This document shows, one piece after another, positions 21,487-45,216 of a stretch of 64,000 bases of DNA; the stretch's first letter is position 1; each line of letters opens with the position of its first letter. The stretch is from Phlyctochytrium arcticum (Eukaryota; Chytridiomycota; Chytridiomycetes; Chytridiales; Chytridiaceae). Made by a program: the position numbers and the translations under genes. The notes under the pieces were generated by a model. The model worked only from the letters and a program-made list of their open reading frames with translations. It did not search any database and was not told the DNA's origin. The stretch covers positions 868,001-932,000 of the forward strand of contig JAHLKI010000004.1 in NCBI GenBank assembly GCA_025602905.1. The letters run 5' to 3'.

Positions 21487-21527
21487 TTTTTTTTTTCTAG
21501 ACACATATCAAATCATAGAATACATAT

Positions 21528-22778: not shown

Positions 22779-22860
22779 TGTTATGTAGACAAAGTTTGCA
22801 GGACATTTAAAAAAAAAGAATTCTTTTTATCGATAGAATAATCTGTAAAAAGTATACTGA

Positions 22861-24222: not shown

Positions 24223-24236
24223 GATATATTTTTCTA

Positions 24237-25295
24237 TTACAAAGTGGGTCTATTATATAGTTCGTTCTCTTCTTTTGAATGATGATTTTGTAATGAAAGG
24301 TATTCACGCGTTTCATTATTCAACGGTTCCTTGTGAATATAGGTGATTTGTCCTCTTCTCAATTCTGCGATTCCATGTCCCGTTGCAGAAATTATTCTTT
24401 TACGAAACGAATCTTCCTTAAACGGATTGCCCTCTTTATCAACAAAAATATATTCAGAATTCTTTCGAAATCGCCAAAAGAATTTTGACAAGATCCTCGC
24501 CATTTTAACAGGGTTTACTCCTTTGATTGAATCATACGGGACTTTGCCCATCGCTTGAGAGAATGATTTTGTGTCAATAACTGGCTCGCTGTGCGAGCCT
24601 CTTGGCAGAGCCAAGTCTTCTGCTACCGATTCGTCTCGTTTTCTTTTAGTAGAATTAATCCGGTCCTGTTTCCGTTCATTCCAAAGAAGAGTAACATTTC
24701 CGCAGTTGTCCGCTGTTAATACATTATCCTTTAAATGAGAAACATTCTTATGACAGAAATTTTTCCAAGTCATATAATTCGCTCGCGTATTGAAAAATAA
24801 AACTGGCACCAAACCAATTATCACAGTTTGTAATTCGTCGATTTGTTCTAGGCTTGGTTCGTGCTTGTCATAAACATACTCGACAGATTCGTACTTTTCC
24901 AACATCTGCTTTACAACCTCTTCATAGTTTATGGTGTCGCTGGGTTGCGGAAGACCATTATATCGAGGGGTCGAGTTGCGAAGTTCGTGAATGGAAACGT
25001 CGTATCGTTTGACAAGTTTTTTGAATTCTTCCTCCTGTATGTCCCAGTGTTGACAACCGGCTTTATTCAATATACGCCGAACTAGACCGAGATAATCAGC
25101 GAGAGATTTCTTGGCTAAATTTCCACCATGCAATTCTTGGATTCGACTTTTGACTTCATCAATCTCAAAAAATATATTTTTGTTGAAGATTCCTTTTTCT
25201 TCGTATTGTGAGACTCGCTTTGAGTCAGATTTGAACGACTTTGCTTCTTTGTTAAGAAATTGTGTGAGAGACATGTTGCCAACTAAGATAACCAT
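24237..25295 (-). CDS. tyrosine-recombinase-like protein (352 aa)
   Basis: The N-terminal half is helical, like a core-binding domain (SLADYLGLVRRILNKAG). The C-terminal end has the pattern GHGIAELRRGQITYI ... HHSKEENELYNR, which matches the Arg, His and Tyr boxes of tyrosine recombinases. An upstream first Arg box is not obvious to me. The element B homologue (38272-39300) keeps AELRR, HHSK and LYNR. It faces the DDE integrase tail to tail with 14 bp between. Relative to B it holds an 8-residue insertion made of two GC-rich hairpins (24583-24615). It could resolve or integrate viral DNA. Confidence 0.55.
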   Translation of the reverse strand: MVILVGNMSLTQFLNKEAKSFKSDSKRVSQYEEKGIFNKNIFFEIDEVKSRIQELHGGNLAKKSLADYLGLVRRILNKAGCQHWDIQEEEFKKLVKRYDVSIHELRNSTPRYNGLPQPSDTINYEEVVKQMLEKYESVEYVYDKHEPSLEQIDELQTVIIGLVPVLFFNTRANYMTWKNFCHKNVSHLKDNVLTADNCGNVTLLWNERKQDRINSTKRKRDESVAEDLALPRGSHSEPVIDTKSFSQAMGKVPYDSIKGVNPVKMARILSKFFWRFRKNSEYIFVDKEGNPFKEDSFRKRIISATGHGIAELRRGQITYIHKEPLNNETREYLSLQNHHSKEENELYNRPTL

Positions 25296-25461
25296 TATAG
25301 TATACTATCGTTTATATAACAATTTAATATTTCATCGATAAAAATGTTGTCGATGTAATATGATGTAAGATGATGAAGAAAAGAAACCGATGAAGAAAAT
25401 GATGCTGTATTGAAAAAAAACACAATTATTTCATTGCTGGTTGCCGCTCTTGGGGGGGGGT

Positions 25462-26073
25462 CTATCTACCGTCACCAAGATCGAATATATCGGTGCGCGT
25501 GCGTTTGTCCTTCGGATCTTCGGTGCGCGTGCGTTTGTCCTTCGGATCTTCAGTGCGCGTGCGTTTGTCCTTCGGATCTTCAGTGTTCGCATTGTTCGTG
25601 ATTGTGTTCAACAAACGGGTGATTTCGGCCTTCAGCCTGTCAATCTCCATTTGATCGGCTGTCAAGTATTCCAATTTGCGGGATCTCAGCCCCGTGTCAA
25701 ATCTCTCCTTGATTTCCGGGAAGTCGGAAAATATCTTAAAAATATCGCTATTTCTGAACTCTTTCATGACTGAAGTGCTTAAGGAGTCGGTGCTGCATTT
25801 GCTGAAATCAAGTTTCGCAATTTTGCGGACGAACTCCAGTTTTAGGGCCTTCAATTCCACCGAGATTTTTCTTTCGATATCGTAAAGTTTCATTGCCTGA
25901 TATAATGTTTCGTCCGGCGATAGGTGAACGGACTTGAATCTGATAGGAGATATGGTAAGCAAAATGTCGCACGCACAAATGGAAGATACTAACTTATCGA
26001 TAGCGGGGGTTCGATTCAGAGTAAGAATCGGCTTGTCCAGTAGGTGCGAGAGATTAAACTTTTGCGAGTTCAT
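25462..26073 (-). CDS. unknown helical protein with C-terminal decapeptide repeats (203 aa)
   Basis: I use the ATG at 26073 (MNSQKFNLSHLL); farther upstream the frame has only GTG. The middle is helical and charged. The C-terminus has three copies of a 10-residue unit of the type TEDPKDKRTR encoded by a perfect or near-perfect 30-bp tandem repeat (about 25492-25585). It is found only in element A. The upstream DNA (26085-26205) is rich in GGTGGGAGAGG-like repeats. No family is recognised. Confidence 0.55.
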   Translation of the reverse strand: MNSQKFNLSHLLDKPILTLNRTPAIDKLVSSICACDILLTISPIRFKSVHLSPDETLYQAMKLYDIERKISVELKALKLEFVRKIAKLDFSKCSTDSLSTSVMKEFRNSDIFKIFSDFPEIKERFDTGLRSRKLEYLTADQMEIDRLKAEITRLLNTITNNANTEDPKDKRTRTEDPKDKRTRTEDPKDKRTRTDIFDLGDGR

Positions 26074-26349
26074 TGCTGCTGTGGCTGTTGTTGATGGAAG
26101 GTGAGACTGGTAGGGAGGCAAGCGTTGGAGAGGGTGGGAGAGGCTCTCCGTAGAGGGTGGGAGAGGGTGGGAGAGGCTCCCTCGAATGAGGGTTTTTCCC
26201 ACTTGTTTCTATTTTAAGTAACCGGAACCTTGCAAGATTCGCGCTCCGATCACTGCTTACGAGATATCCGTCGGCAATGGTATATAAAAATCAGATCGAA
26301 AGATTTCACCGCTTATCCCCATCGCCCCTCCCATTACAACTTGGAAAAA

Positions 26350-26589
26350 ATGGACGTCTCCTCTGAAAAAATGGACGTCAACTCTGAAATCTCGGATTTT
26401 GTTACAAACATCAAATCCTGCGTCGAGAAGTTCAACACGATCGTGAATGATCTCGACAACATTGTTGAATATGTTCCAAGCGGAAATCTCCGTGAACGTC
26501 TCACCAGTCTTCAACATCATATGGAACGGATTCAAGTCGAGATGGATTGTTTAAAAGGGAGTAGCGAAAAAGTTCGTAACTTTCTCTGA
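26350..26589 (+). CDS. small coiled-coil protein (79 aa)
   Basis: The chosen ATG (26350) lies about 65 bp downstream of a TATATAAA box (26280-26287). The sequence is helical with heptad-like spacing (FVTNIKSCVEKFNTIVNDL, LTSLQHHMERIQVEMDCL). Element B lacks it. The function is unknown. Confidence 0.5.
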   Translation: MDVSSEKMDVNSEISDFVTNIKSCVEKFNTIVNDLDNIVEYVPSGNLRERLTSLQHHMERIQVEMDCLKGSSEKVRNFL

Positions 26590-26673
26590 AAGGATCGAAA
26601 ACGGTATGTATCATTTTGCGTATTAAAGGAAACGATAATTTAATCTATTATTATTATACAGACCCAAACGTTC

Positions 26674-26889
26674 ATGCCTATCTATTCAACACCATATGAA
26701 GTCAAGTTTGCTGAAAATTGCGCTCCTATTGTCCCGGAAGGATGTCGTGTTTGTAAAGATTATTCGAGGGAGAATGTAACGTGTCAAATCATAATTCCAT
26801 ACATGAGAACTCGTGTCCGTTGTTATACATGTTACGATACTTTTAAAGATTCCAAACTTGGAACATTCAAACTCGAATTAGATGATTGA
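26674..26889 (+). CDS. conserved small Cys-containing protein (71 aa)
   Basis: Two CxxC-like pairs (GCRVCKDY and RCYTCYDTF) suggest one zinc ion bound. Element B encodes a homologue of identical length (37895-38110) differing at only a few residues. The last 12 bp overlap the 3' end of the convergent SET gene. In element B the same 12-bp overlap is made with a different gene. It resembles small zinc-ribbon transcription or replication factors, without a specific match. Confidence 0.65.
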   Translation: MPIYSTPYEVKFAENCAPIVPEGCRVCKDYSRENVTCQIIIPYMRTRVRCYTCYDTFKDSKLGTFKLELDD

Positions 26890-27489
26890 TTCATAGAGTA
26901 GTTTCAGTATTTTCTGCTGATTTTCTAACGCTAAAATCCGTCCTTTTTCTAATAATCGTTTGGCTTTTTCACCTCGAATCTTCATATTTGTTAATGAACA
27001 TTTACAAGAAAACTTATGAAAAGATCCCGCCATCAAATTCTCATCGTGTCCAAATCGCTCTCCATAAAATAGACATATTTCTTCATTCGCAGGAATATCT
27101 CGCAAAGAAAACACGATTCCCAATGTGAGGCTATCGGCCTCACCTGTGAGATGCAATAGACCGTATACTGCATTTGAATTACACGAATGATTATAAAAAG
27201 ATAAGTGATGACCTAGAATTAATTCGCCGTTTCCGAACGAATTCGAAAGAACTTTTTCAAAAAGTTTGCCCTTTTTGTTTGCACTTTCCACAATACGTTC
27301 TCTGGGACAAAGTTCTGTATATAATTGTTCATCTGTAGCCAATTGTTCCATACATTTGTAAAGATCTCCTACAATCAAGACGTCAACATTTAGAATGGTG
27401 TTTTTTGCGATATTCTCCGTGGCAACTATTCCAAGCCCATGTTTGACTTCTGTCTTCATTATACCGTCGTGTTTGTAGATTGTAGTCAT
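26878..27489 (-). CDS. SET-domain lysine methyltransferase-like protein (203 aa)
   Basis: All main SET motifs are visible: GLGIVATENIAKNTIL at the start, SFYNHSCNSNAVY (the NHSC..N cofactor-binding box) in the middle, RDIPANEEICLFYGERFG (the GEE..Y box) and a short post-SET Cys pair CKC. The enzyme would use S-adenosylmethionine to methylate lysine, most likely on histones or viral core proteins. A TATATAAA box lies 42 bp upstream (27531-27540). It is absent from element B. Capture from a host is likely but the donor is unknown. Confidence 0.8.
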   Translation of the reverse strand: MTTIYKHDGIMKTEVKHGLGIVATENIAKNTILNVDVLIVGDLYKCMEQLATDEQLYTELCPRERIVESANKKGKLFEKVLSNSFGNGELILGHHLSFYNHSCNSNAVYGLLHLTGEADSLTLGIVFSLRDIPANEEICLFYGERFGHDENLMAGSFHKFSCKCSLTNMKIRGEKAKRLLEKGRILALENQQKILKLLYESII

Positions 27490-27530
27490 TCTGAAACACT
27501 TGCGCTCTGTACAATATGATAATTTTCAAA

Positions 27531-27540
27531 CCTTTATATA
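27531..27540 (-). promoter_or_regulatory. TATA-like box upstream of the SET gene
   Basis: TATATAAAGG on the minus strand, 42 bp before the SET start codon. Similar boxes precede other replication-side genes in both elements (26280, 30466, 38251, 56222). Confidence 0.5.
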
Positions 27541-27604
27541 GCAAAAATGGTGACACATTTTGCAACGATTTTTTGCAAAATGTGATGTATTATTTAACTA
27601 TTGA

Positions 27605-27845
27605 TTCCTCACACTTCTAGCCTTTTTTTGCCCTCTTTTTTGCCTCTTTCATTCTCAATTTCATTTTACTTTTTTAAAAAACGTTTTTCTTCTCTCTTGT
27701 AAAATTATCTCTCAAATACCGGCTAGAATGGCTAGGATTTCTCTCTTCATGTTTTTTACTACATATTAAAAAAAAAAAACAATCTCATCTCTTCATGTTT
27801 CGAAACAAAAAAAACCTAGATCGAAAAGGCTATGTCTAGTCTATG
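27605..27845 (+). repeat. internal copy of the inner part of the terminal repeat
   Basis: It is homologous to 8341-8574 and, inverted, to about 30961-31195, with small indels (shared TACCGGCTAGAATGGCTAGG). With the right terminal repeat it encloses the primase-helicase, HTH and Cys-rich genes as an inverted-repeat cassette. Confidence 0.85.
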
Positions 27846-30372
27846 TTCTGGTGCTTCTTCCGCGTACCATTGCTGGGTTGCTCGCTACCCGAGCGTCCCA
27901 TTTTTCCCGGAGGTCTTTTTTGTTGACATTCTCATACACCTCATTATCATCATCTGCGGCAAGTTCCCAATCGTTCAACAGCCGGCCACCAACCCATGCG
28001 CGTACATTTTTCCCATCGCTCCACACTTGACGACGTTCATTTTTAGGGGGAAACAACTTATCCAACATTTCATATAGATGTTTAACAATCTGCGAGTTCT
28101 TTGTGATTCCTTTCGCTCGGCAAAAGTTGCTAAATGCTTCATCAATGCTCGCTGTACTAATAATCATGTTTTTGTCGTTCGTTTTAGATATGGATCCATT
28201 CACAAACTGGAGAGGGATATTTTGTGATTCTTCATATTTGGAAACCAAATCAGTAACAATCTTTGGATGGTCAACACGACGAATCCCGTCTTTTTTGTAA
28301 CTCGTAATATAAGTTTTGATCAAAAGTGCCAGAAAAGTATCAGCACATTGTAGAAGGGTTTCCTCGTATCTTTCAATGATTTTTTTTTCATGGGGTAGTT
28401 TAGGATCATCAGTAAATGAACAATCGAAAGGGATTATAACAACTTTTCGCCAGAAACCGCGTGTTTTATCCTCAATATTTGGTAAATCATTCACAGCAAT
28501 AAACACCTTTGTCATAAGATCAACAACAACTTGTTCTTTGTAAAGTGCTCTGCCGCTTGTTTGATCTCCTCCAGCCACCATTTTCAAGAACTCCGTAAAG
28601 AGAACTTTGTCCTCTAGTTCCGTTAAAAATGACCCGCGCTTGTGTGTTAGAGCCACCAAAGCGGGAGATGCAGCCTGGGCATTCACATTTGCTTTAGTAA
28701 CAAGTGCTGAAGGAATGGTTGCACCATAATCACCTAAACATATCTTCAATAGTTTAATCAAAAGTGACTTTGCATTTGCACCCACCCCATGAAAGAAAAA
28801 GAAGAATTGATCTCGCACATATCCGTCTAATGTTGATGACATGATTTTCAGCAAAAATTCGATTAATTCAGTACGTCCCAGCATTACATCATCAAGAAAT
28901 TTCTCGATGATATCTCGCTTCTCCTTTGGATGCTCATCGTAGTTCAAGTATTTTATATTAGTCGACATGGTAGAATAATCATCAGGTCGTGCTTCTCTGA
29001 ATTCTTCTTTTTCCAAGTCATAAACACCATTGGCACAATGAAGAAGTCCCCGTTTCGTGTTGAACAGTGCGTCTTTACGACTATCGCGTATCAATTCAAA
29101 AAGTGCTGCCAAGTGATCATTTTTCTTACTAGTCATGGATAGCGAGTGGTCTAAATCGTTCGCCGCTGTCATTCGTGTATCCCATGTATGACTTTGGGAA
29201 GAATCCACTACTCGCAACTTTGAGCAAATTTGGGAAAGTTCCTTTACTAATTTCACGAAATAGTCCGTAACCGGACGTAAAATAACATTCCGAAATTCTT
29301 CTCTCCATACTCCGGTTTTCTCATCAAAGACCAACCATTTATTCATGTTAGCCGTAGGTAAGACGGTATTATTGAGGTGTTGAAAAAGTAATTCAGAAAC
29401 AGCCCGATTAGAAACATCCATGTTTTCAATAAGTGTTTTAGTAGGTGGATGAAAATCTTCCCACAACTTTAAATAGTCGATATCGAGAATTCGATTGAAT
29501 CCTTTACCAGGACGACAAACAAATTTTAAAATTCCGTTATTTCTTACCAGAAATGGATGATTAGAGTTTGTTATATGTTGTCTTTCACAAATGTCACAAT
29601 CATAAGGTGCGGTGGCGGTGATGATATACAAATTGTTAACAGTAGACGAACTTGCAATTTTGAAGCATTTCTGCCAATATTTGCTCGACATGAGAGTCTC
29701 GACATCATCATCGTTCAACTCTGTATTTTCTACTGGATTGCTTGTGTAGATTTGCATCTCAAAATGTTTTTGATGCTTGGTCATTGTAGTCGTGATGTTT
29801 TTCAGAATCCAATTCGGAAAAGGCGCCATGGGAACATTGAATTCATCGTTAGTGTCCCATCTGTAGCGTTTAGTCCCTTTTAAAGAGGGCGGGCACATAA
29901 CATAACCACCCTTTTTTCTAATGTCAACAGCGATCAAGCGATTATTGACATTCATGCAGGATGTCCAGTTCTTAAGTCTTTCTTCTCCTTCTTTACCGGT
30001 TAATGAAAAATAGTAATGTTTCCCTCCGCTAGGAGTAGTAACAGTTAAAGTTACAGGGAGTGGTTCGTTTTGCTCGATAAGAGTTTGGAAATCGACAGTT
30101 CCGTGATTGTTCGAGTAAACGTTCTTTTTTCCATTAACAGCCGGAGGTTTTGCGTCAACATCAACAACGATATATTCGTCGGATACCAATAAACCGATAT
30201 TACAGTTAGATTCCCATCCTTCACGCTTGGGAAAATCACGCTCAAATAGATAATTGTTTAGTGACCATTTCCCAAGCGGTCTTTTCGTCACTGTAGACGC
30301 CGGAATGGGAACAAATGCGGGATTGGCGCGCTTCATTTTCTTCGCGTATTTGAAAAGTTCTGTTTGTGGCAT
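27841..30372 (-). CDS. archaeo-eukaryotic primase (Prim-Pol) fused to D5-type SF3 helicase (843 aa)
   Basis: The N-terminal primase-polymerase has the DxD motif VVDVDAK, TPSGGKHYYFS and the third motif VDIRKKGGYVMCPPS. A Cys cluster (CDICERQH ... FVCRPG) follows. A D5_N region with LLHCANGVYDLEKEEF precedes the SF3 helicase: Walker A HGVGANAKSLL near residue 530, acidic FLTELED and sensor-1 IAVNDLPNIED. Walker A has Ala in place of the usual Gly before Lys. The protein would prime and unwind the viral genome and is the main replication protein of element A. Element B has an unrelated N-terminus at this position (34141-36639). Confidence 0.88.
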   Translation of the reverse strand: MPQTELFKYAKKMKRANPAFVPIPASTVTKRPLGKWSLNNYLFERDFPKREGWESNCNIGLLVSDEYIVVDVDAKPPAVNGKKNVYSNNHGTVDFQTLIEQNEPLPVTLTVTTPSGGKHYYFSLTGKEGEERLKNWTSCMNVNNRLIAVDIRKKGGYVMCPPSLKGTKRYRWDTNDEFNVPMAPFPNWILKNITTTMTKHQKHFEMQIYTSNPVENTELNDDDVETLMSSKYWQKCFKIASSSTVNNLYIITATAPYDCDICERQHITNSNHPFLVRNNGILKFVCRPGKGFNRILDIDYLKLWEDFHPPTKTLIENMDVSNRAVSELLFQHLNNTVLPTANMNKWLVFDEKTGVWREEFRNVILRPVTDYFVKLVKELSQICSKLRVVDSSQSHTWDTRMTAANDLDHSLSMTSKKNDHLAALFELIRDSRKDALFNTKRGLLHCANGVYDLEKEEFREARPDDYSTMSTNIKYLNYDEHPKEKRDIIEKFLDDVMLGRTELIEFLLKIMSSTLDGYVRDQFFFFFHGVGANAKSLLIKLLKICLGDYGATIPSALVTKANVNAQAASPALVALTHKRGSFLTELEDKVLFTEFLKMVAGGDQTSGRALYKEQVVVDLMTKVFIAVNDLPNIEDKTRGFWRKVVIIPFDCSFTDDPKLPHEKKIIERYEETLLQCADTFLALLIKTYITSYKKDGIRRVDHPKIVTDLVSKYEESQNIPLQFVNGSISKTNDKNMIISTASIDEAFSNFCRAKGITKNSQIVKHLYEMLDKLFPPKNERRQVWSDGKNVRAWVGGRLLNDWELAADDDNEVYENVNKKDLREKWDARVASNPAMVRGRSTRT

Positions 30373-30465
30373 TCTGTGATAAAATGTTGTCCTATCCTAA
30401 TAATCACCATACAGAACTTTAAATACTAGTAAACGCACAGCGGATTTCAAAAATATCAGTGTAAT

Positions 30466-30476
30466 ATTATATAAAG
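30466..30476 (+). promoter_or_regulatory. TATA-like box upstream of the HTH gene
   Basis: ATTATATAAAG lies about 30-40 bp before the ATG at 30506. Confidence 0.45.
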
Positions 30477-30505
30477 ATAGGCTAATAGTTGTAAACTATT
30501 GAACA

Positions 30506-30715
30506 ATGCCTGCATCGGATTCAGATTATATTGCTATTGTCCGATTTCTCGATGAACAAAAGATTGTCATGGCAGCCAGTATTCGAGAACTTGCACAAAA
30601 ACTCGGCATTTCGCATGTAACAGCACATAAAATACTGAAACATCCAGAGAAGCATACATATCTCGATGCAAAAATCCACCGGATACCAAGAGTTGCAACC
30701 AGCAAAGTCATTTAA
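30506..30715 (+). CDS. small helix-turn-helix protein (69 aa)
   Basis: The segment SIRELAQKLGISHVTAHKIL is a clear helix-turn-helix of the type found in small repressors. The basic C-terminal half (KHPEKHTYLDAKIHRIPR) would follow the recognition helix. The element B protein at 37688-37906 has a comparable layout (LKDMLGVCYHTAKRI, then RIYKLP). A transcription regulator role is inferred. It is part of the cassette bounded by inverted copies of the terminal-repeat block. Confidence 0.6.
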   Translation: MPASDSDYIAIVRFLDEQKIVMAASIRELAQKLGISHVTAHKILKHPEKHTYLDAKIHRIPRVATSKVI

Positions 30716-30753
30716 ACGTTCAGTAGAAGTATATAGTTAAACATTGTCGCACA

Positions 30754-30957
30754 ATGCCGAAACCTTGTAAAACTACCAGTTGTAACACAACAATTCGAAA
30801 TGCAAAGACCTATTGTGACCCGTGTTGGACTTCCTTTAAGCCTTGTGTCAACAGAGCGACTGGTTGTATCGGGAGAGTGCCAAGAGACAGACAAAGTTGG
30901 ACCGATAAATGCGCTTACTGCGGATTGAAGATGTATGAGAAAAAGGGAGAATGTTAG
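30754..30957 (+). CDS. Cys-rich small protein (67 aa)
   Basis: Ten cysteines in 67 residues (CKTTSC, YCDPC, KPC, GC, KCAYCG, GEC) and a basic charge suggest two zinc-binding knots. The stop codon overlaps the first bases of the right terminal repeat. There is no homologue in element B. It is possibly DNA-binding. Confidence 0.5.
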   Translation: MPKPCKTTSCNTTIRNAKTYCDPCWTSFKPCVNRATGCIGRVPRDRQSWTDKCAYCGLKMYEKKGEC

Positions 30958-32156
30958 AGGATCATAGACTAGACATAGCCTTTTTGATCTAGGTTAATTT
31001 TGTTTCGAAACATGGAGATAAGAGATTCGTTTTTTAATTTATTTTGTAGTAAAAAACATGAAGAGAGAAATCCTAGCCATTCTAGCCGGTATTTTGGAGA
31101 TAATTTTACAAGGAGAATAAAAAACGTTTTTGAAAAAAGTAAAATGAAATTGAGAATGAGAGAGGCACAAAAAAGGCTGAAAACGGGCTAGAAATGTTAG
31201 GTATGAATCGAACATTTCAATTACTGAGAAGTTGCAGAATCGGGGTGGATACAAAAAATGACACAGAAAGGCGAATCGAAGAGATTTAACATATGAAAAG
31301 TGCCAGACTGCGATGTTAAAGGCGCGAAAAGCAAAAGTGTAAAAAGTGGGTAAGTGAACACTTATACGGGGTAACCCTTTAAGAGTACGACGTTCAAAGT
31401 GTTCACTTACCCACTTTTTGTCGTTCCAGTAAAATGGAGTGAGTCAGATAAGTTCCAGTGTAGTTTGCTCGACGAATGGAGAGCAAAGTTGAATCGGGGG
31501 AGATTCATCCAGATGAACCTAGATTATCGATATTGCGTTATATCGATACCATCCAGAATGTAGGATTGGTCTGGGGACTATTATCGGAAAAAGTCCCGGG
31601 ACTTGTAATGCAACATTTCTGGTTGATATCGATATCGATAACGTAGAATGTTATAAGGTTTGAAAGTCCCGTAAAGGGCCCGCTCCATAAGCGATTCACA
31701 ACGATTCAGATGTCGATGGCTTGATACAGTGTCTTCACCAAGGTCACTAAAAGATAAATTTGGTATCTCTGAAAGGAGAGCAACGATCAACCGGGGGGTC
31801 GTTGCTTTTTTGGATAGAATGTGAGGAGATGAGACACGATGCTTACGTAAGCAGCCTGGAAGTCCCGTAACCGTAACAAGCGGCACGACTCGATGAAATA
31901 TGGAGAGGGATGATTCATATTGTGCAAGATGGCTCGATGTTTGATGGAGGCGGCCTTATCATAAGGTCACATAGTGGAGAAGTGGCCTTATAGTAAGGTC
32001 ACATAGCGGGCTTCACAGTTGCCGCATAGTTGGCCCATAGTTGGCCCATAGTTGGCCCATAGTTGACCCATAGTTGACCCATAGTTGGAACCCCCCTGTG
32101 ATAGTGCACTTAAAATCCCATAGTATATACTATGGGATTTTAAGTGCACTATCACA
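30956..32156 (-). repeat. element A right inverted terminal repeat (1201 bp)
   Basis: It is the inverted partner of 7379-8579, ending with the same 60-bp palindrome (32097-32156) and an 11-bp tandem array (about 32020-32089). No gene is called here. Confidence 0.92.
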
Positions 32157-32161
32157 TTGTG
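32157..32161. repeat. target-site duplication of element A (right)
   Basis: TTGTG, identical to 7374-7378. Confidence 0.75.
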
Positions 32162-32544
32162 CTCTTCGACAATCAGTCAGGGACGTTTGGCGCTTGTAGC
32201 GTTGACGTTTGCTGAAGGCGGATATGTAGCGGATGCTCTTCAACTATCAGTCAGGGACGTTCTATTGCCTTAGCTCAACGTTTGCTGTAGCCGGGTATGC
32301 TCCGTTGATCAGTCAGGAACGTTCTATTGCCTTAGCTCAACGTTTGCTGTCGCAGGATGTGTTCAAGTCATACTGTCAGGGACGGGAGAATATCTTCGCC
32401 GTTTGCAGTTGACAGGTTTGAAGAATGCAGGGACGTTTAGCCTATGGCCATGGACGTTTACTCTTTGATATGGTTGTAGAATCTTGTTCAATAAAAGTGA
32501 TATTGGTGAAAACAGATTGAAACATGAATTGGAAAAAAAAAAAA
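32162..32544. repeat. degenerate tandem repeat of about 65-80 bp units
   Basis: About four to five units contain TCAGTCAGGGACGTT and AACGTTTGCTG. One more unit lies at 7299-7378 across element A, so the virus integrated inside this array. On the minus strand it follows the stop of the copia gene, so it may be part of that element's 3' tail. There is no gene. Confidence 0.65.
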
Positions 32545-32740
32545 CTAAACTAAAGAGTTAACATTTGCTTCTCTCAAATATAAACCAAGTAAGCTTCTTA
32601 GCTTTTGAAATTGAGGCCTAGGAAGTGCTGTGGTCATAATGTCAGCAATGTTATCCTCAGTTCCGACATGTTCAATCGAAATCAATTTCATATCCAGCTT
32701 CTCTCGGATAAAATGATGTCTAACATCGATATGTTTGGTG
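32545..32740 (-). pseudogene. copia retrotransposon, C-terminal end of RNase H (detached by element B)
   Basis: The minus-strand frame encodes TKHIDVRHHFIREKLDMKL and the usual copia ending, with a stop at 32545. The frame continues the RNase H segment ending at 57886; the two halves join at the conserved RTKHID motif once element B and one 5-bp duplication are removed. Confidence 0.85.
32736..32740. repeat. target-site duplication of element B (left)
   Basis: TGGTG, matching TTGTG at 57881-57885 with one mismatch. Confidence 0.6.
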
Positions 32741-32802
32741 TGTGATAGTGCATAACCAAATCCCATAGTATATACTATGGGATTTGGTTATGCACTATCA
32801 CA
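32741..32802. repeat. perfect 62-bp terminal palindrome
   Basis: It is self-complementary over its full length. The core is shared with element A (CCCATAGTATATACTATGGG) but the arms differ in the middle (ATAACCAAA versus CTTAAAA). Confidence 0.9.
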
Positions 32803-33085
32803 GGGGAGATTCCAACTATGGGCCAACTATGGGCCAACTATGGGCCACATTACACCGGACTTTACACCGGGCTTTACACCGTGTAATACGCTGTGTACGG
32901 GACTTCCAGAAAATTCACAAATTTCTTCTGTCAAAATTTCACACCTTACAAGTCGGCGAAGAATATTCTTCGCCCCATTTACAAGTCTTCACCGGTGTAA
33001 TACGCTCATTACACCGTGTAATACGCTCATTTACGGGACTTTCAATTTGTTACAACGATTTATTACAACGATTTATTACAAGCCT

Positions 33086-33427
33086 TTACTCCAATCTTGT
33101 CCTTTTTGGCAGTGATTCTTGGGCTTCCTCCAATTCCTCTACTGAAACATTTCTCATCCATACAACTGACGGCTTCATATGGGCGTCTCGTATATCCATT
33201 GGTAAAGACCGCACATCCACTCGGTTCATTTTTCGAATGTTGAAGAATAATGTCTTCATTTTATTCCCATCCTTTATTGACACCTTGGTTATTTCGAAAT
33301 TCTTCATCTCTTCCTTGATAAAATCCAGAGCCGCTGTATGCTTCTTCACGATTCTATCCGCTGCTTTGAATTCCTCCGATATGTCCAAATTGATAAAGTC
33401 CAGTACTCGTTGTTCCAATCTCTCCAT
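33086..33427 (-). CDS. terminal-repeat-encoded protein, left copy (113 aa)
   Basis: An uninterrupted helical charged frame (MERLEQRVLDFINLDISEEF onward) ends in a basic KRTRLE. The right terminal repeat carries the same gene (57229-57570) with one residue changed. The frame is long and protein-like in composition, unlike other frames in the repeats. It shows no known domain. Being in the repeat gives two gene copies, as in poxvirus termini. Confidence 0.6.
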   Translation of the reverse strand: MERLEQRVLDFINLDISEEFKAADRIVKKHTAALDFIKEEMKNFEITKVSIKDGNKMKTLFFNIRKMNRVDVRSLPMDIRDAHMKPSVVWMRNVSVEELEEAQESLPKRTRLE

Positions 33428-33534
33428 TCTTATCCAGCGATGGGTGATATTGTCGAATGACTTCTCCGTTATGGAGCGGCCCCTTTACGGGACATTCAAA
33501 CCTTTATAACATTCTCTCGTTATCGATATCGATA

Positions 33535-33620
33535 TCATCCAGAAATGTTGCATTGGAAGTCTGGGGACTTTTTCCGAAAATAGTCCCCAGACTTCCAATC
33601 CAACATTTCTGGATGTTATC
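33535..33620. repeat. large imperfect inverted repeat in the terminal repeat
   Basis: Arms of about 36-38 bp (from ATCATCCAGAAATGTTG inward) surround a short loop with TTTTCCGAAAAT. The same structure is at 57041-57132, and a degenerate version is in element A at 7900-7995. It may be a replication origin or resolution site. Confidence 0.75.
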
Positions 33621-34140
33621 GCAATCCTTTCAGGATCATCAGGATCATCAGGATTATCGATATCACCCCCCGATACTGCTATGCCCCTCTGTGTGTCATT
33701 TTTTAATCTCCCGATTCTGCAACTTCTACATATCGATATCATCCCAAAAAAAGGTGACACTTTTGGTGAAAGTTTTTTTTACTCCACGTCTCGAGTGAGA
33801 GACACTTTTCATTATATATTTCCCTCCATTTTACATGTAGGTGACAGAGATGACAGTTTTTTTGAGGTAAAGTCCCTGGGGATATAGTTTTTAGAGTAGT
33901 GAGAAGTTGTTCACACGTTCTGTCAACTTCTGCTCACTCATAAAAATTCTATACAAAAAATAAACATACAAAAAAACTGTCATTTCTGTCACCCTTTTTT
34001 TCCCTTCATAGAAACACACAACTTTATTAATAAATTTTTATTTTCCTATATGTATCGAGTGGTGACAGTTTTTTTTTTTACCTGTCACCAAACTGTCACC
34101 TTTTCCAAAAAACTGTCACCCCTCTTCATCCATCCCCGAT

Positions 34141-36639
34141 TCAAACATTCTTCCATTCTATCCCTACAAAGTATCGAGTCGTCTTTGTTCGCTTCTCCGA
34201 TACTACCGCTCTCAGTTCTTTGTAAAATGTGTTTCGCTCACAAAGAGTTGTGGATCCAACATTATCGGCCAGATACTTATCGTAGATTGCGGTTCTTTCA
34301 ATTTTGTCTTCGGGGTTGTTGGTCAATTTATAAGTCATTTTGAACCATTTCGCAACGGTTAGAGAATTTACCAGATTCTTTTTAGTATACTCATTGAGCT
34401 CCTCTGGAACCTTTATCGACAAATCCAAAGTTCCATCCTTCTTTACAAACTTTGCTTTAAAGTATTGCAGCAATATGAGAATAAATGTGTCTCGATATTC
34501 TGGAGAGGATAAAAGTCTTTTAAGGTTTGGATCAACTTGACGAACAATTTGTTCATCTTCACCATCATCCATTTGGACGGCCTCTTCTTCATCCTCTTCT
34601 TCATCATTACATTCTGCAAATGTAACGGTGTAAGGGATCATTTTCGCCGAAAGAGCAATAGCAGTATCGATACGGTCGAATTTTGGATCTTCGTTTGTTT
34701 GAATATGGAGAGCGCCAGTCATAGGGAACGTAAGAGGTTTGCCGTGAAGTGTCCGAACCGGATAAGGGTCATTTCCTCGAATGATTTTAATTTCATCAGA
34801 AGCAAAGGATTGACCAACTTGAGGCTCAGAAGTTGCGAGATATCTCTTACCGAAACAGTTGAACATTTGCGCATTTGGGGCATCACGTTGACCTTTGCTG
34901 CGAGTAGTAATATTTTCAGGTTTGATAAAGTAGAAATAAGTCCCAAAAGTAGATGTAATTAGCGCGGTTTCAGCACCCTTCCCGTTACGACCGCCTCCTT
35001 TTTGTACGTAAAAGGACTCTTCAACGACCTTTCCATATAGACATCGTGCAAGTTGAGCGATACGATAGTCACGTATATTATCGCATGGAAAGATGCTTTC
35101 AATGAATGAGGCGATTGCCTCTTTAATGTCCGCATCTTCTCCATCGCTAGGAAAAGGATACCCGCAAGTGTGCAAGATGTAATCTTTGGCTTGAAAAGGA
35201 CGAAACTCACCCGTGGTAAGGTCATAAACCCCATCGGTGAATGCGAAAAGATGAGGATTGGAAAGAAAGAGCCCGATACAATTGTCGTTTTTAACAGAGA
35301 GTCTATCGACATTTTTAGCCACGTTTCCAGAGAAATCATTCATTTCGATTATTCGTTGAAATTGTTTGAACACATCTCTAAGGTCGTTGACACTCTGCAT
35401 ATCGTCCTCTGCTTCCTGGATAAGAGATGTAAAGGAGGACACCAAAGTTTCGGCAACTTGGATATTCAAATCACTTGCTCCAATAGTGTCATACTCGCGC
35501 CAGATATTGTCGTTCCCGAGGATATAGAGAAAACCGCTCGTATGTTTCATGATGCTATCGGCACTTTGTTTTTCAATAAACCATTTTGCGGCGTTGAGAT
35601 GTGTTGGAGCATAAAGTCGCTTGAAATCGAAATATTTCCATCTGCCAGATGGTAAGCCCCGCAGCGCTTCGAAATCAAGGTCATCTTTTTGTTTTTTCTT
35701 GGGTGGCTCATCATCATAATCCTCCTCATCATCTTCTTCCTCCAAAGGTTCATACTTCAAACGGAATTTCCCCAAAAACGCATCAGAAACAACGAGTGGT
35801 TTTTCCGCCAGTTTAATATGAATACCACAGTTGTCAAAGACGAATTGTGAACATTCATCAAGTAACTCTTGAGTTATATCATGGCCGTCCTGTTTCCTAA
35901 TCATTCCACCATCAAAGATAAGAGCATCAACCGACCACCCCCGATCGGTAAAGAATTGATCCGTTAAAAGTGTCACTCTGTTTTCGAGGGTTTGGGTAAC
36001 TTGTGCGATAAAACTACCTTCGCGATTGCCCTTAATAGTAGCATCCCGGGATGTTCTGACTTTTTCCCAAATGTCGGGATACTCGATTTTTAGAATGGGG
36101 CAAAGTGTGGTGTAAACGGCCGAGTGTATTTCAGAAAAGAAAGGGTCACTGATTTTGCGCCCAGCGAATAGCATCATGGAAACGACCTCTTGTTTGTCAA
36201 TTTTTTTTTCTGTTAAGATAGTAGAGCGATTTTCGACATAGTGAGTTAGAGCATCACAAGTGATAGAATGTTGTTTAAAGAGATGAGCAATTAGAGTAAA
36301 TATAGAATTTACTTGGTCTATATCATGATACCGTCCCGCGGCTAGATACTGTCTAAAGTGATTTTCTCTAGCCTGGAGATTCTGAAGAGACAATCCTCTA
36401 GCCCACAATCGGCCAATATGTTCATGGGCGCTCTTCTCTGAATACGCATATTCGGTGCGATAAAGATTTTTTCCAACTTTGCGATACTTAAGAGCACGCA
36501 AACGGGTCTTCATTTTGTGTAAAACGAATGGACTCTGAAGACAATATTTGATATGAATGTCATTGAGATACTCGAATTTTTCGAGTGCGGTATTGCTTGA
36601 TAATTTTGGACAAAAGAAGTCAAAGTCAAAGTCAGACAT
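34141..36639 (-). CDS. TV-Pol-like polymerase fused to SF3 helicase (832 aa)
   Basis: The N-terminal half shows features I associate with TV-Pol, the family A-related polymerase of transposons and viruses: GRLWARGLSLQNL near residue 76, a motif-A-like DIDQVN at 106-111, an O-helix-like KKIDKQEVVSMMLFAGRK near 145-162 and a motif-C-like LIFDGGMI at 240-247. A D5_N block (FAFTDGVYDLTTGEF) leads to an SF3 helicase with Walker A GGGRNGKGA near 550, YLATSEP and sensor-1 HIQTNEDPKFD. It probably copies and unwinds the element B genome. The 3' end lies in the terminal repeat. The polymerase call is from memory of motif order. Confidence 0.72.
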   Translation of the reverse strand: MSDFDFDFFCPKLSSNTALEKFEYLNDIHIKYCLQSPFVLHKMKTRLRALKYRKVGKNLYRTEYAYSEKSAHEHIGRLWARGLSLQNLQARENHFRQYLAAGRYHDIDQVNSIFTLIAHLFKQHSITCDALTHYVENRSTILTEKKIDKQEVVSMMLFAGRKISDPFFSEIHSAVYTTLCPILKIEYPDIWEKVRTSRDATIKGNREGSFIAQVTQTLENRVTLLTDQFFTDRGWSVDALIFDGGMIRKQDGHDITQELLDECSQFVFDNCGIHIKLAEKPLVVSDAFLGKFRLKYEPLEEEDDEEDYDDEPPKKKQKDDLDFEALRGLPSGRWKYFDFKRLYAPTHLNAAKWFIEKQSADSIMKHTSGFLYILGNDNIWREYDTIGASDLNIQVAETLVSSFTSLIQEAEDDMQSVNDLRDVFKQFQRIIEMNDFSGNVAKNVDRLSVKNDNCIGLFLSNPHLFAFTDGVYDLTTGEFRPFQAKDYILHTCGYPFPSDGEDADIKEAIASFIESIFPCDNIRDYRIAQLARCLYGKVVEESFYVQKGGGRNGKGAETALITSTFGTYFYFIKPENITTRSKGQRDAPNAQMFNCFGKRYLATSEPQVGQSFASDEIKIIRGNDPYPVRTLHGKPLTFPMTGALHIQTNEDPKFDRIDTAIALSAKMIPYTVTFAECNDEEEDEEEAVQMDDGEDEQIVRQVDPNLKRLLSSPEYRDTFILILLQYFKAKFVKKDGTLDLSIKVPEELNEYTKKNLVNSLTVAKWFKMTYKLTNNPEDKIERTAIYDKYLADNVGSTTLCERNTFYKELRAVVSEKRTKTTRYFVGIEWKNV

Positions 36640-36741
36640 TTTTTATTGTGTTGAAATGTGTTGATATTAAAGTAAGAGTATTATTTCTTTATATATATGT
36701 TTAAACGCAAAACATCTGTATAAAGGAGAAAATCGGAAAAA

Positions 36742-37563
36742 TTACAAAATATCATCATAATAACATCGATCGAGACATCGCTCTTGACCTTTTTTAATAA
36801 GATTACAACACTGACTACATCGAACATAAGGAGATAATCGTTTTGGAACACTACAGGTGTAACATTTATGACGATTCTGTGTGCATTCAATGACTTTCAT
36901 ACTTTTGTAAGCATCAGTTCCTCGAATTTTGGTTTTTTTGCCAGGGAAAACCCGCTGTAATTCTTGATCCAGAAACAGACATTTACAAGTGTGGCAACTC
37001 GCAAATTTCTTTACTTTCAGGGCTTCTTGCAGGAGGTCAACATCTGCGAACTGCTCGATACATTCACTGCCAATTCGAGTAATGTTCTTAGTGATTTTAT
37101 TCCATACTATGAATACCTTGTGTATGATGTGGGTACAGGTGCAATGCCACCAATCATTGTAATGGGGAAATTTCAATTTGTCTGAAATGGACATATTTGA
37201 AAACTCAAAAAACTCGCTTTGCAGAGTTTTCAAATCAATGACTGTTGGTTTGGTTAGTTCTGGATACTTTTCACATGGCAAAAGTATAACTTCGTCATCT
37301 CCCTCGTCATCTTCCTCGTCATTTCCCCAATTGACAAATCCTATCAATACCCATTCTGATCTACATCCGAACCAATCTTGACACCGACTGGCATACGGCA
37401 TTTTCGCGATAAGAATCCGATGGTAATATGCTGGCCCAAATATACCATCGCAAGATTGTTGTTGTACAATTAAGTCCAGTTTTTCTTTGAGTTTCTCTGC
37501 TGCTTCAACTCGAATCTCTTGACGGGTTCGTTTGCTTTTTTTTCCACTGGTAGTATTTGACAT
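36742..37563 (-). CDS. Cys-rich protein of a giant-virus-like family (273 aa)
   Basis: It has a central motif WHCTCTHIIHKVFIVWNKIT ... IGSECIEQF, of a kind I recall from uncharacterised proteins of giant viruses and phages. C-terminal Cys pairs follow (CHTCKCLF, KCYTC, VRCSQCCNLI, CLDRC), probably binding several zinc ions. An acidic patch (DEEDDEGDD) is in the first third. There is no homologue in element A. It sits beside the polymerase-helicase, so a replication or transcription role is possible. Confidence 0.6.
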   Translation of the reverse strand: MSNTTSGKKSKRTRQEIRVEAAEKLKEKLDLIVQQQSCDGIFGPAYYHRILIAKMPYASRCQDWFGCRSEWVLIGFVNWGNDEEDDEGDDEVILLPCEKYPELTKPTVIDLKTLQSEFFEFSNMSISDKLKFPHYNDWWHCTCTHIIHKVFIVWNKITKNITRIGSECIEQFADVDLLQEALKVKKFASCHTCKCLFLDQELQRVFPGKKTKIRGTDAYKSMKVIECTQNRHKCYTCSVPKRLSPYVRCSQCCNLIKKGQERCLDRCYYDDIL

Positions 37564-37687
37564 CTTTACCGGTTAGGTTATATGTTGGAACTGTCGCTTT
37601 ATATAAGAAAATAATGACGAAACTTCGATGCGTCCTATTTAAAGATAAATACTCTTACTATATAGAACATATATTCGAACACTCAGA

Positions 37688-37906
37688 ATGCCAAATCCAA
37701 AACATCATTATTATGCAACTTATGACATATTCCCCGGTACACAAAAAGAGTTTCAAGCCAATTCTATCAATCAACTGAAAGACATGCTTGGTGTTTGTTA
37801 TCACACGGCAAAACGGATTGCTGATATGAATGGTGAACTGTACCCAGGATGTCGTAAAGCCAGTAGAATTTACAAGTTACCAAAAGACATTGAATCAATC
37901 ATCTAA
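37688..37906 (+). CDS. small helix-turn-helix-like protein (72 aa)
   Basis: The layout resembles the 69-aa HTH protein of element A: a helical NSINQLKDMLGVCYHTAKRI segment followed by a basic RIYKLPKDIESII. The last 12 bp overlap the convergent 37895-38110 gene. In element A the same overlap is made by the SET gene. A DNA-binding regulator is likely but not proven. Confidence 0.5.
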   Translation: MPNPKHHYYATYDIFPGTQKEFQANSINQLKDMLGVCYHTAKRIADMNGELYPGCRKASRIYKLPKDIESII

Positions 37907-38110
37907 TTCAAGTTTGAATGTTTCAAGTTTGGAATCTTTAAAAGTATCGTAACATGGATAACAACGCACACGATTTCTCATGTATGGAATTATAATTTGA
38001 CACGTTACATTATCCCTCGAATAATCTTTGCAAACACGACATCCGTCTGGGACGATAGGAGAGCCATTTTCAGCAAACTTGACTTGATACGGTGTTGAAT
38101 AGATAGGCAT
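37895..38110 (-). CDS. conserved small Cys-containing protein (71 aa)
   Basis: Near-identical homologue of 26674-26889, with the same two Cys pairs (GCRVCKDY, RCYPCYDTF) and the same C-terminus LELDD. The start is the ATG at 38110 (MPIYSTPY). Confidence 0.65.
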   Translation of the reverse strand: MPIYSTPYQVKFAENGSPIVPDGCRVCKDYSRDNVTCQIIIPYMRNRVRCYPCYDTFKDSKLETFKLELDD

Positions 38111-38271
38111 TTTGTACGGTATACTTTTAAAAAGTATAAAAATGTTTAAATATAGCATCAACCGCAAACTGACCGCCGAAACATTCCTTTGACATCTCTT
38201 GTATCATCTTACATCAATAAACATTATATCGATAAAGAATTAAATTGTTATATAAACGATAGTATACTATA

Positions 38272-39300
38272 ATGGTTATCTTAGTTGGCAACATGGCTCT
38301 CACACAATTTCTCAACAAAGAAGCAAAGTCATTCAAATCTGACTCCAAGAGAGTCTCACAGTACGAAGAAAAAGGAATCTTCAACAAAGATATATTTTTT
38401 GACATTGATGTTGTTAAAACAAACATTCAAGAAGTGCATGGCGGTAAACTAGGCCAGAAATCCGTAGCCGATTACGTCGGTCTAGTTCGGCGTATATTGA
38501 ATAAAGCCGGTTTTCAACACTGGAATATACCGGAAGCCGAATTTGATACTCTCATTAAACGATACGATGTTTCCATTCACGAACTTCGCAACTCGACTCC
38601 TCGATATAATGGTGTTCCGCAACCAACGGACACCATAAATTATGAAGAGGTTGTTAAGAAGATGTTGGAAAAGTATGAATCTGTCGAATACGTTTACGAT
38701 AAACATGAACCGAGCCTTGAACAAATCGACGAACTACAAAATGTGATAATTGGTTTAGTGCCAGTTCTATTTTTCAATGTTCGAGCCAATTATATGACTT
38801 GGAAAAACTTTTCTCATAAGAATGTTTCTCATTTAAAGGATAATGTCCTCATAGCGGACAATTGCGGTAATGTTTCTATTCTTTGGAATGAGCGGAAGCA
38901 AGATAGAATAAATGCTACTAAAAGAAAACGAGACGAATCGGCAGAAGATGACTTGGCTCTTGTTGATACAAAATCATTCATTCAAGCCATGGGCAAAGTC
39001 CCGTATGATTCAATTAAAGTAGTAAACCCTGTTAAAATGGCGAGAATCTTGTCAAAGTTCTTTTGGCGATTCAGGAAGGAATCTGAATATATTTTCGTTG
39101 ATAAAGAGGGTTTACCCTTCAATGAAAATACTTTCCGCAAAAAAATAGTGGAGGCAACAGGGTACGGGATCGCTGAGTTAAGACGGGCACAAGTTACATA
39201 CATTAGGAAAGAACACCTCAACAATGAAATGCGTGGATATCTTGCTGTTCAATGTCATCATTCAAAGAGCGAAAACGACCTTTACAATAGAGATGCCTAG
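38272..39300 (+). CDS. tyrosine-recombinase-like protein (342 aa)
   Basis: Homologue of 24237-25295. The C-terminal box is GYGIAELRRAQVTYI ... HHSKSENDLYNR. The 8-residue hairpin insertion of element A is missing, so this is the ancestral form of that segment. A TATA-like box (TATATAAACG, near 38251) precedes the ATG. The frame is intact despite decay elsewhere in element B. Confidence 0.55.
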   Translation: MVILVGNMALTQFLNKEAKSFKSDSKRVSQYEEKGIFNKDIFFDIDVVKTNIQEVHGGKLGQKSVADYVGLVRRILNKAGFQHWNIPEAEFDTLIKRYDVSIHELRNSTPRYNGVPQPTDTINYEEVVKKMLEKYESVEYVYDKHEPSLEQIDELQNVIIGLVPVLFFNVRANYMTWKNFSHKNVSHLKDNVLIADNCGNVSILWNERKQDRINATKRKRDESAEDDLALVDTKSFIQAMGKVPYDSIKVVNPVKMARILSKFFWRFRKESEYIFVDKEGLPFNENTFRKKIVEATGYGIAELRRAQVTYIRKEHLNNEMRGYLAVQCHHSKSENDLYNRDA

Positions 39301-39315
39301 ATAGAAAAAAATATA

Positions 39316-40656: not shown

Positions 40657-40670
40657 TTCTTTATTATACA

Positions 40671-41210
40671 CTATACATCATAAAGTTTAAACATTGCTCC
40701 AGTTGTTCTGTTTAACTCTTCGGCTTTTTTCAGATATGCTCTGGCCGCATCTTCCTTGTTGTCGAAATATCCAATGTAAATCTGCTTTCCATCCATTGGT
40801 ATATATGCACTCCATTTCCTATATCTCTTGATCCAAGAAACGCCTTTATAGCCTGAAGTGTTATTCTTCGGTTTATCCCTCCACTGTTTGTTTTGCTGCT
40901 GTGTGACAATTTCAAGGTTGTCAATTCCATTATCGCCAGGAATATTGTTTATATGGTTGATTTCTTGGTCAGGTCGTAATTTGACTCCATGATATGTCTC
41001 ATATATATAGCGATGATTGCTGTAGTTCTTATTGTTGAGCCAAAACCTATAATATCCATCTAGATTGGGATTTCCAACAAATTCACCAGTTTTGTTACAA
41101 TATCCCGTCTTCAAATTCTTGATCAATCCACGCTCTGGAAAACCTTCGAATCCATCAACAGTCGTAATCGTTATTTCGGGAATTTCTGCCATTGTTTCTT
41201 GAATGCTCAT
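40671..41210 (-). CDS. HNH homing-type endonuclease with AP2 DNA-binding domain (179 aa)
   Basis: The HNH core is EINHINNIPGDNGIDNLEIV (about residues 82-101). It is followed by an AP2-type domain, SGYKGVSWIKRYRKWSAYI ... IGYFDNKEDAARAY. This pairing is typical of phage and organellar homing endonucleases. Element A has nothing between capsid and integrase genes. Here the gene is accompanied by a second, divergent copy of the capsid gene tail (41221-41396). It is intact and could still cut. Confidence 0.88.
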   Translation of the reverse strand: MSIQETMAEIPEITITTVDGFEGFPERGLIKNLKTGYCNKTGEFVGNPNLDGYYRFWLNNKNYSNHRYIYETYHGVKLRPDQEINHINNIPGDNGIDNLEIVTQQQNKQWRDKPKNNTSGYKGVSWIKRYRKWSAYIPMDGKQIYIGYFDNKEDAARAYLKKAEELNRTTGAMFKLYDV

Positions 41211-41220
41211 AATTCCGAAA

Positions 41221-41396
41221 CCATCGTTTAAATACTTTTTACAGATTATTCTATCGATAAAAAGAATTCTTATATTTTTTAAATGACCCTCTACATAACA
41301 TCACACCACACTAACCAAGCCGCCCACCGATAAAGACACATTCTCGGCGTACGAAACAGACATTCTTTATTATACAGTATACTTTTTACAGATTAT
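41221..41396 (-). repeat. duplicated capsid-gene tail and intergenic spacer
   Basis: This stretch repeats the last roughly 20 codons of the capsid gene and the following spacer (compare 41397-41515) with about 10-20 per cent divergence in the coding part. It begins with a remnant of the integrase start (ATAATAAAGA then ATGTC). It is a relic of the event that brought in the HNH gene. Confidence 0.75.
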
Positions 41397-41447
41397 TCTA
41401 TCGATAAAAAGAATTCTTATATTTTTTAAATGACCCTATACATAACA

Positions 41448-42698: not shown

Positions 42699-42736
42699 AT
42701 GTATTCTATGATTTGATATGTGTCTAGAAAAAAAAA

Positions 42737-45208: not shown

Positions 45209-45216
45209 ATATACAA

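Follow-up and report, generated by a model that had tools for sequence, protein, structure and literature searches.

Replacement of replication genes in virophages and Polinton-like viruses (PLVs) has been described in the accessible parts of several earlier papers (PMC3671162, PMC4642659, PMC8547959, PMC12220804). For cryptophyte PLVs the text available reports that polymerase and capsid trees disagree, in the case of a family-B polymerase (PMC12220804), and for EMALE01 and EMALE02 non-homologous gene replacement was proposed in the sections accessible (PMC8547959). Chytrid PLVs are represented, in the available portions of Bellas and Sommaruga (2021, PMC7805220), by an S. punctatus group made up of one integrated Spizellomyces punctatus element and its metagenomic kin, while a survey of protists, by the part at hand, excluded Fungi from its search (PMC10120064). 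Here we examine a stretch of 64,000 nucleotides (the window) from contig C4 of the chytrid Phlyctochytrium arcticum, whose genome comprises 31.5 Mb on 91 contigs. The window carries two integrated PLVs, elements A and B, with sister capsid genes and different replicases. We find that whole replicase arms are shared across capsid lineages in this genome, some at 99.9% DNA identity, and that the swap is not limited to A and B; the genome holds a pool of PLVs exchanging the replicase arm. The features on which the argument turns are the following, in positions of the window.

7379..32156: element A, an integrated PLV of 24.8 kb with terminal inverted repeats (TIRs) and the 5-bp flank repeat TTGTG on both sides
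7379..8579, plus strand: TIR of A distal to the replicase, 1201 bp
30956..32156, minus strand: TIR of A adjoining the replicase, 1201 bp
7379..7438 and 32097..32156: perfect palindromes of 60 bp at the tips of A
32741..57880: element B, an integrated PLV of 25.1 kb in the orientation opposite to A, with interrupted major capsid protein (MCP) and fibre genes
32741..32802 and 57819..57880: perfect, hairpin-capable palindromes of 62 bp at the tips of B
27841..30372, minus strand: replicase of A, 843 aa, Prim-Pol with D5_N and superfamily 3 (SF3) helicase, from profiles and fold
34141..36639, minus strand: replicase of B, 832 aa, TV-Pol with D5_N and SF3 helicase, from profiles and fold
26674..26893: junction block of A, 220 bp, 93% identical to 37891-38110 of B
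37891..38110: junction block of B, the partner of 26674-26893
27600..27848, plus strand: cassette repeat of A, an inverted copy of 30960-31208 (87.6%), which flanks Prim-Pol in C17 and C28 too
27597..31271: Prim-Pol cassette of A, common to C28 at 94.7%

A and B are two separately integrated PLVs of one chytrid capsid lineage. The TIR pair of A is complementary at 100%, that of B is ∼1457 bp long at 96.7%, and 584 bp separate the two elements, both of which lie within the 14-40 kb that delimit TIR-bounded PLV genomes. The 5-bp flanks of B (TGGTG and TTGTG) differ by one base, so B has no perfect target duplication. Matches to the tips were found on both strands at other elements too, beside TV-Pol (C43 and C67) and beside Prim-Pol (C28), and the tip sequences suggest element ends of a hairpin type rather than protein-primed ones. 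An earlier note, made from the letters of the window, had described A and B as collinear from the F-box gene to the tyrosine-recombinase-like gene. This agrees with the DNA homology, which runs with gaps between A 9014-25375 and B 55519-38193 at 72-84% and is broken mainly in the fibre gene; a separate 161-nt stretch (A 8612-8772, B 55936-55776) spans the start of the F-box gene of B. The homology stops 80 nt past the recombinase-like gene, and beyond A 25375 the DNA matches between A and B consist of the 220-bp junction block and pieces of the TIR. In the searches made, the junction block occurred only in elements with a recombinase-like gene, whatever their replicase type. The two replicase genes gave no DNA match to each other at an E value of 1e-3, and within 18600-25375 A and B are nowhere identical over as many as 150 nt.

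Both replicase open reading frames (ORFs) exist as previously reported. Assignment of the A protein as a Prim-Pol primase with an SF3 helicase was confirmed by matches to PF09250 (Pfam E 6.8e-20, residues 23-188), D5_N (E 4.4e-11), TIGR01613 (above cut-off) and the AsfvPrimPol fold (E 7e-26). Residues 1-350 of the B protein returned no Pfam match up to E 0.1; a second look at the structure search with VIA-align matched residues 3-284 to family-A DNA polymerases in fold, and the best viral model for this replicase is the replication protein of the Zamilon virophage (E 1.2e-31). The fold and the Zamilon match bear out the name TV-Pol. The best 50 rows of plain Foldseek for B consist of AsfvPrimPol and poxvirus D5/E5 entries, and a sequence search of the PDB matched primase-helicases in the helicase half and gave one further hit at chance level (E 0.72). 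The C-terminus of B matches D5_N (PF08706, E 1.1e-10) and poxvirus D5. DID and FDG motifs, which may bear on polymerase or primase activity, are present in the TV-Pol alignment.

The best BLASTP E value between the N-terminal 350 residues of A and B was 0.79. The helicase halves are divergent, as the earlier note held (21% identity over ∼220 aa), and hhalign finds the C-terminal D5_N-SF3 halves homologous (99.9%, E 1e-32, 467 columns). To call the two replication proteins unrelated was therefore too strong: this applies to the N-terminal polymerase domains, which are non-homologous, and not to the C-terminal halves. The same note had named a shared family at the two N-termini as evidence that would tell against it; the families differ, with Prim-Pol in A and a family-A polymerase fold in B. 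The polymerase domains are thus of different families (archaeo-eukaryotic Prim-Pol and PolA-like TV-Pol) on homologous SF3 helicases. IMG/VR, scanned with the MCP, TV-Pol and Prim-Pol, yielded no relatives.

The MCP has at least 24 near-full-length matches in its own genome (42-100% identity), plus more remote ones, all such counts being lower bounds. Within the elements bearing the A/B capsid (MCP 71-88%), Prim-Pol I is found in A and C17, Prim-Pol II in C23a, and TV-Pol I in B, C4b, C3 and C2, where genes were paired into elements from the longer matches and short fragments were left out. The Prim-Pol II of C23a is 35-38% identical to the A protein at the N-terminus and far more distant in the helicase. 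C17 and C23a have MCP genes that are 99.0% identical and identical rve genes, yet carry Prim-Pol I and Prim-Pol II respectively. A and C23a form a mosaic: four stretches match exactly (835, 202, 377 and 309 nt), and next to them is one of 71-88% identity over the capsid and integrase genes.

The converse comparison drew on 22 MCP loci and 11 Prim-Pol loci out of 30 each, after near-duplicates and fragments had been set aside. C15, C18 and C41 have Prim-Pol DNA that is 100% identical (2436 nt), as do C23b and C26, and C1 and C2 agree at 99.8%, whereas the MCP DNA was 54.5-55.0% identical when C15 was compared with C18 or C41, 54.4% for the pair C23b/C26 and 54.3% for C1/C2; C18 and C41 share one capsid type (96%). 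With their flanks included, and in 12 chosen locus pairs, the arms were identical at 99.91-99.95% in C15, C18 and C41 (5436 nt), 99.96% in C23b and C26 (5433 nt) and 97.6% in C1 and C2 (4361 nt). In approximately unbiased (AU) tests on 13 MCP and 11 Prim-Pol rows, the MCP data rejected all three Prim-Pol groupings (p-AU 6.8e-175, 2.3e-60 and 1.4e-65) and the Prim-Pol data rejected the two capsid clades (p-AU 1.1e-10 and 7.9e-5). Concordant trees for all genes had been proposed as a finding that would count against replacement; inside this genome the MCP and Prim-Pol trees are discordant by the AU test. At C45 two capsid genes flank one Prim-Pol, which we paired by gene order with the capsid gene at 36465.

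The replicase of A is nearest to those of C17 (99% aa) and C28 (89%); A 26674-31191 matches C17 at 98.2% and A 27597-31271 matches C28 at 94.7%, on a contig with no match to the MCP or ATPase of A. The TV-Pol of B has its nearest counterparts in C43 and C67 (96%), on contigs without A-type MCP or ATPase matches, and is 88% identical to that of its capsid sibling C4b. A and B were inserted separately and differ in their TIRs, and the nearest kin of each replicase lie in other elements; the exchange did not take place between the two. The claim of a replaced replication module stands for sister capsid lineages, but not the view that this one locus caught A and B in the act of swapping.

Further elements with the recombinase-like gene extend the picture. 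C25 has TV-Pol I and C13 a TV-Pol 39% identical to that of B, each with no MCP match nearby. At C6:103482-127750, with TIR tips 24 kb apart, TV-Pol I (82%), the recombinase-like protein (73%) and rve (66%) are of the A/B kind vs an MCP at 27% and an ATPase at 31%; in this element it is the capsid block that seems to have been replaced. A tree of the recombinase-like gene, built from 8 of 14 matches (C13, C6 and remote ones being left out; 5 of 5 inner branches well supported; midpoint root), nests the Prim-Pol elements within a grade of TV-Pol ones, with two replicase changes. From this tree and from the TV-Pol and MCP of Spizellomyces, which lie on contigs of equal length, TV-Pol would have been in this capsid lineage first and the Prim-Pol of A would be the newer replicase. 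The element at C5:1119671-1128805 has 9.1 kb between its TIRs and a TV-Pol 91% identical in aa to that of B; the 4.5 kb of it that were read contain a degraded rve integrase and an ORF resembling Crinkler-N (L069:2722-3108; E 0.0012, below the Pfam cut-off), and no capsid gene was seen there among three ORFs scanned. Elements of this kind, in which A-type capsid genes were not detected, look like a replicase reservoir. TIR-like ends 50 kb apart surround the sibling C4b (C4:1108641-1158974) and may mark an element that is larger or nested.

At 10 of 22 Prim-Pol loci (of 30 in all; second gene pieces and one short fragment were left out) the gene is flanked on either side by repeats of 211-264 bp, vs none of the 30 MCP loci and none of the eight rve loci, all of which were included. 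They are inverted in A, C17, C28 (twice) and C45, and direct in C15, C18, C41, C23b and C26. The repeats of C15 and C23b have 138 bp in common at 97-98%, though the Prim-Pols are 75% identical. Several edges of Prim-Pol homology fall at repeats or close by: that between A and C28 begins at 27597, where the repeat begins at 27600; the C15-C45 match ends at 1230 of the C15 arm and the match of C15 to C26 and C23b begins at 1480, with the repeat between them at 1238-1448; and a C17 match (462664-462911) begins at 5189, where the repeat ends at 5213. In C23a the A-like stretch breaks inside the repeat, at A 27764, where another copy of the junction block follows directly (A 26546). By its coordinates, the far end of C23a keeps the TIR arrangement found beside Prim-Pol I in C17, likely a trace of a lost replicase. 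The inner 249 bp of A's far TIR (8327-8575) are the same repeat that bounds the Prim-Pol cassette, and the far TIR of B takes in ∼50 nt from the 3' end of that element's TV-Pol; these are what copying of one end would leave.

The explanation that we favor, with a probability of roughly 0.74, is that A and B are separately integrated PLVs with sister capsids, whose replicase arms were exchanged by recombination among co-resident elements. Several elements present as DNA in one nucleus would allow recombination to swap the arm that reaches from the capsid block to the TIR, and the exchange could enter at the shared 211-264-bp repeats or at the conserved junction block. Where the genome is linear and the replicase lies close to an end, a single crossover would exchange the whole arm, and copying of that end onto the other would then make the TIRs alike again. 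The replicases may be interchangeable, as both types share palindromic, hairpin-capable tips and would need no protein-primed polymerase.

A number of observations weigh against this explanation. The AU and tree tests rest on few rows, and the recombinase-like tree is rooted at its midpoint. The C15/C18 swap is described without an exact crossover pair, which probably lies within a stretch of 2.7 kb, and identical arms could also be explained by gene conversion or misassembly. The 10 repeat-positive Prim-Pol loci amount to three or four sequence families, and the repeat count is confounded by position, Prim-Pol lying near a TIR and the MCP not. Flanking repeats at every replicase were rejected as a rule, 12 of the 22 Prim-Pol loci being without them, and the TV-Pol of B has no second flanking repeat, with none on its capsid side. 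Two further matches to the C15 arm stop at 1152 and 1165, 73-86 nt short of the repeat, and the C26/C23b match continues to 5237, beyond the second one. The junction in C23a (A 27764 to A 26546) has a microhomology of only 2 nt; therefore not every exchange was homologous.

Ectopic gene conversion between integrated copies, overwriting the arms without virus replication or packaging, is the rival we take most seriously, although we consider it unlikely; it overlaps in part with the exchange proposed above, which leaves the site of recombination open. Conversion would fit the near-identity of arms between contigs, and the A/C23a mosaics with their blocks at 100% and 71-88% resemble conversion tracts. 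However, the region replaced between A and B is without DNA homology and bounded by 220 bp on one side and TIR pieces on the other, several cassette edges coincide with repeats, and elements in which an A-type capsid gene was not detected carry related replicases (C28 at 95% DNA identity; C5 at 91% aa, with its own TIRs). Replacement of a domain within one gene, with the SF3 helicase kept and the N-terminal polymerase domain exchanged, has a precedent in the helicase displacement that Yutin 2013 (PMC3671162, as far as accessible) infer in virophages. C81:8527-11019 (L054:532-3024) also encodes one ORF of 830 aa, a natural domain chimera in which a TV-Pol-like N-terminus is joined to an A-type SF3 helicase 45% identical to that of A and matching B at 24%. 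This explanation is nevertheless improbable for A and B, whose helicases are only 21% identical while their capsids are 88% identical, and the sharing between A and C28 and between C15 and C18 spans the entire gene and its flanks.

Misjoining of identical replicase arms to different elements during assembly would account for the arms of C15, C18 and C41 differing by only 3-5 nt in 5436. We regard such an artefact as highly improbable: the replicase-capsid distance is 9.2-9.3 kb in all three and the copies do differ by a few nt, the identities among A, C17 and C28 are graded (95-98%), unlike a collapse, and discordance is also seen far from identity, as in C6. Local duplication of one element followed by a change of replicase in place is suggested by the 584 bp between A and B, but hardly deserves credence. 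The two have opposite orientations, their TIRs share only pieces, DNA divergence elsewhere is 16-28%, and A is nearer to C17 and C23a than to B in the ATPase, the recombinase-like gene and part of the penton region. A single tandem duplication as the origin of A and B was rejected on orientation, TIRs and divergence.

Recombination among co-resident elements might go further. We tentatively propose, as a possibility somewhat short of even odds, that the replicase is a repeat-bounded exchangeable cassette circulating among the co-resident PLVs and a reservoir of 9-kb-class elements in which no capsid genes were detected, so that capsid and replicase would reassort freely, like genome segments. 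The types involved would be Prim-Pol I, Prim-Pol II, TV-Pol I, a second TV-Pol type and the chimera of TV-Pol with an A-type helicase, on PLV ends that are palindromic and hairpin-capable.

The remaining genes of the two elements are listed below.

8992..9495, plus strand (A), and 55037..55471, minus strand (B): receiver-domain (CheY-like response regulator) protein, Pfam E 4.4e-8 and 1.6e-8
11240..11566, plus strand (A), and 53710..54036, minus strand (B): small protein with a benyvirus 14-kDa family match below threshold, E 8.7e-6
11570..17407, minus strand: fibre-like protein of A, 1945 aa, repetitive, with a weak match to avian adenovirus fibre
19427..20137, minus strand: packaging ATPase of A, Pox_A32 E 1e-7, above cut-off
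44084..44794, plus strand: packaging ATPase of B, 89% to A
20180..20905, plus strand: probable minor capsid (penton) protein of A, from place and size only, with no profile match
21528..22778, plus strand: MCP of A, weak Capsid_N match
41448..42698, minus strand: MCP gene of B, interrupted by one TGA
22861..24222, plus strand: rve integrase of A with chromodomain, PF00665 E 8.9e-11
39316..40671, minus strand: rve integrase of B, by homology to A
40671..41210, minus strand: HNH/AP2 homing-endonuclease-like gene, present in B and not in A
24237..25295, minus strand: tyrosine-recombinase-like protein of A, motif only
38272..39300, plus strand: recombinase-like gene of B, homologue of that of A
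26878..27489, minus strand: SET-domain (lysine methyltransferase-like) protein of A, in a stretch also found in C17 and C23a
36742..37563, minus strand: gene adjoining the B replicase, weakly like the replicase neighbour of C23a (E 0.003)

The MCP of A matches Capsid_N at E 0.002, below cut-off, and is 64% identical to a chytrid MELD virus protein that bears the name hexon. A packaging ATPase, as used to define PLVs, is present in both elements. Of the features of Polintons sensu stricto, the rve integrase is present, but no match to a protein-primed PolB was found in the ORFs of A longer than 500 aa or in the 832-aa replicase of B, a scan that left out the fibre pieces of B and a 538-aa ORF homologous to one of A. 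The label of tyrosine recombinase in the earlier note has no support from profiles: Pfam, PHROGs, NCBIfam and PDB gave no relevant match to that superfamily. The C-terminus of the protein has what we take to be an R...HH...Y-like motif, partly lacking in two of six aligned sequences. The 1945-aa protein of A is perhaps a receptor-binding fibre. The benyvirus match, scored on A's copy, reached 26.3 bits vs a cut-off of 28.1, and the relation is doubtful. The CheY-like receiver-domain protein in both A and B is odd for a PLV. The SET-domain gene adjoins the replicase of A; for the gene at 36742-37563, beside that of B, no second DNA copy was found in the genome. The HNH/AP2 gene sits between the capsid and integrase genes, adjoining a 127-bp tandem duplication (41232-41505). 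The host flanks contain a MULE transposase gene and a gag-pre-integrase/rve fragment (601-2913 and 59864-60868), in a repeat-rich insertion region.

Replacement of replication genes in PLVs and virophages has long been suggested by deep trees, but the event itself is seldom observed in detail. Where a single genome offers several swaps (98-100% identity) together with relatives of a donor and cassette edges, breakpoints, polarity and rate become directly measurable, and the near-identical copies point to a large, recently active population of double-stranded DNA viruses in a true fungus. No report of the P. arcticum elements or of repeat-bounded replicase cassettes was found among the open-access papers listed, judged mainly by title and abstract. 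What is new relative to the known principle is the recency, the resolution, the repeat-bounded cassette and the fungal host.

As far as the accessible parts of the published accounts allow, the closest systems compare as follows. The S. punctatus group, like A and B, is a chytrid-integrated PLV; the MCP of A is 68% identical to Spizellomyces punctatus proteins, which presumably belong to the published element. P. arcticum differs from it in having at least 24 near-full-length MCP matches and, within a single capsid lineage, three or more types of replicase. The TV-Pol-S3H proteins of PgVV, Sputnik and OLV (PMC3671162, PMC4642659) resemble the B replicase in combining a PolA-like N-terminus with an SF3 helicase; unlike these, the relatives of B among the matches listed are seven chytrid proteins and two of metagenome type. 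AEP-S3H of Guillardia and cryptophyte PLVs (PMC4642659, PMC12220804) joins a primase-polymerase to SF3, as in A, but unlike the cryptophyte PLVs we find 99.9% identical replicase arms on 55% identical capsids. EMALE01 and EMALE02 of Cafeteria (Hackl 2021, PMC8547959) are, as here, a co-resident pair with one half in common and the other replaced; there the capsid half changes, whereas in P. arcticum it is mainly the replicase arm, in repeat-bounded cassettes.

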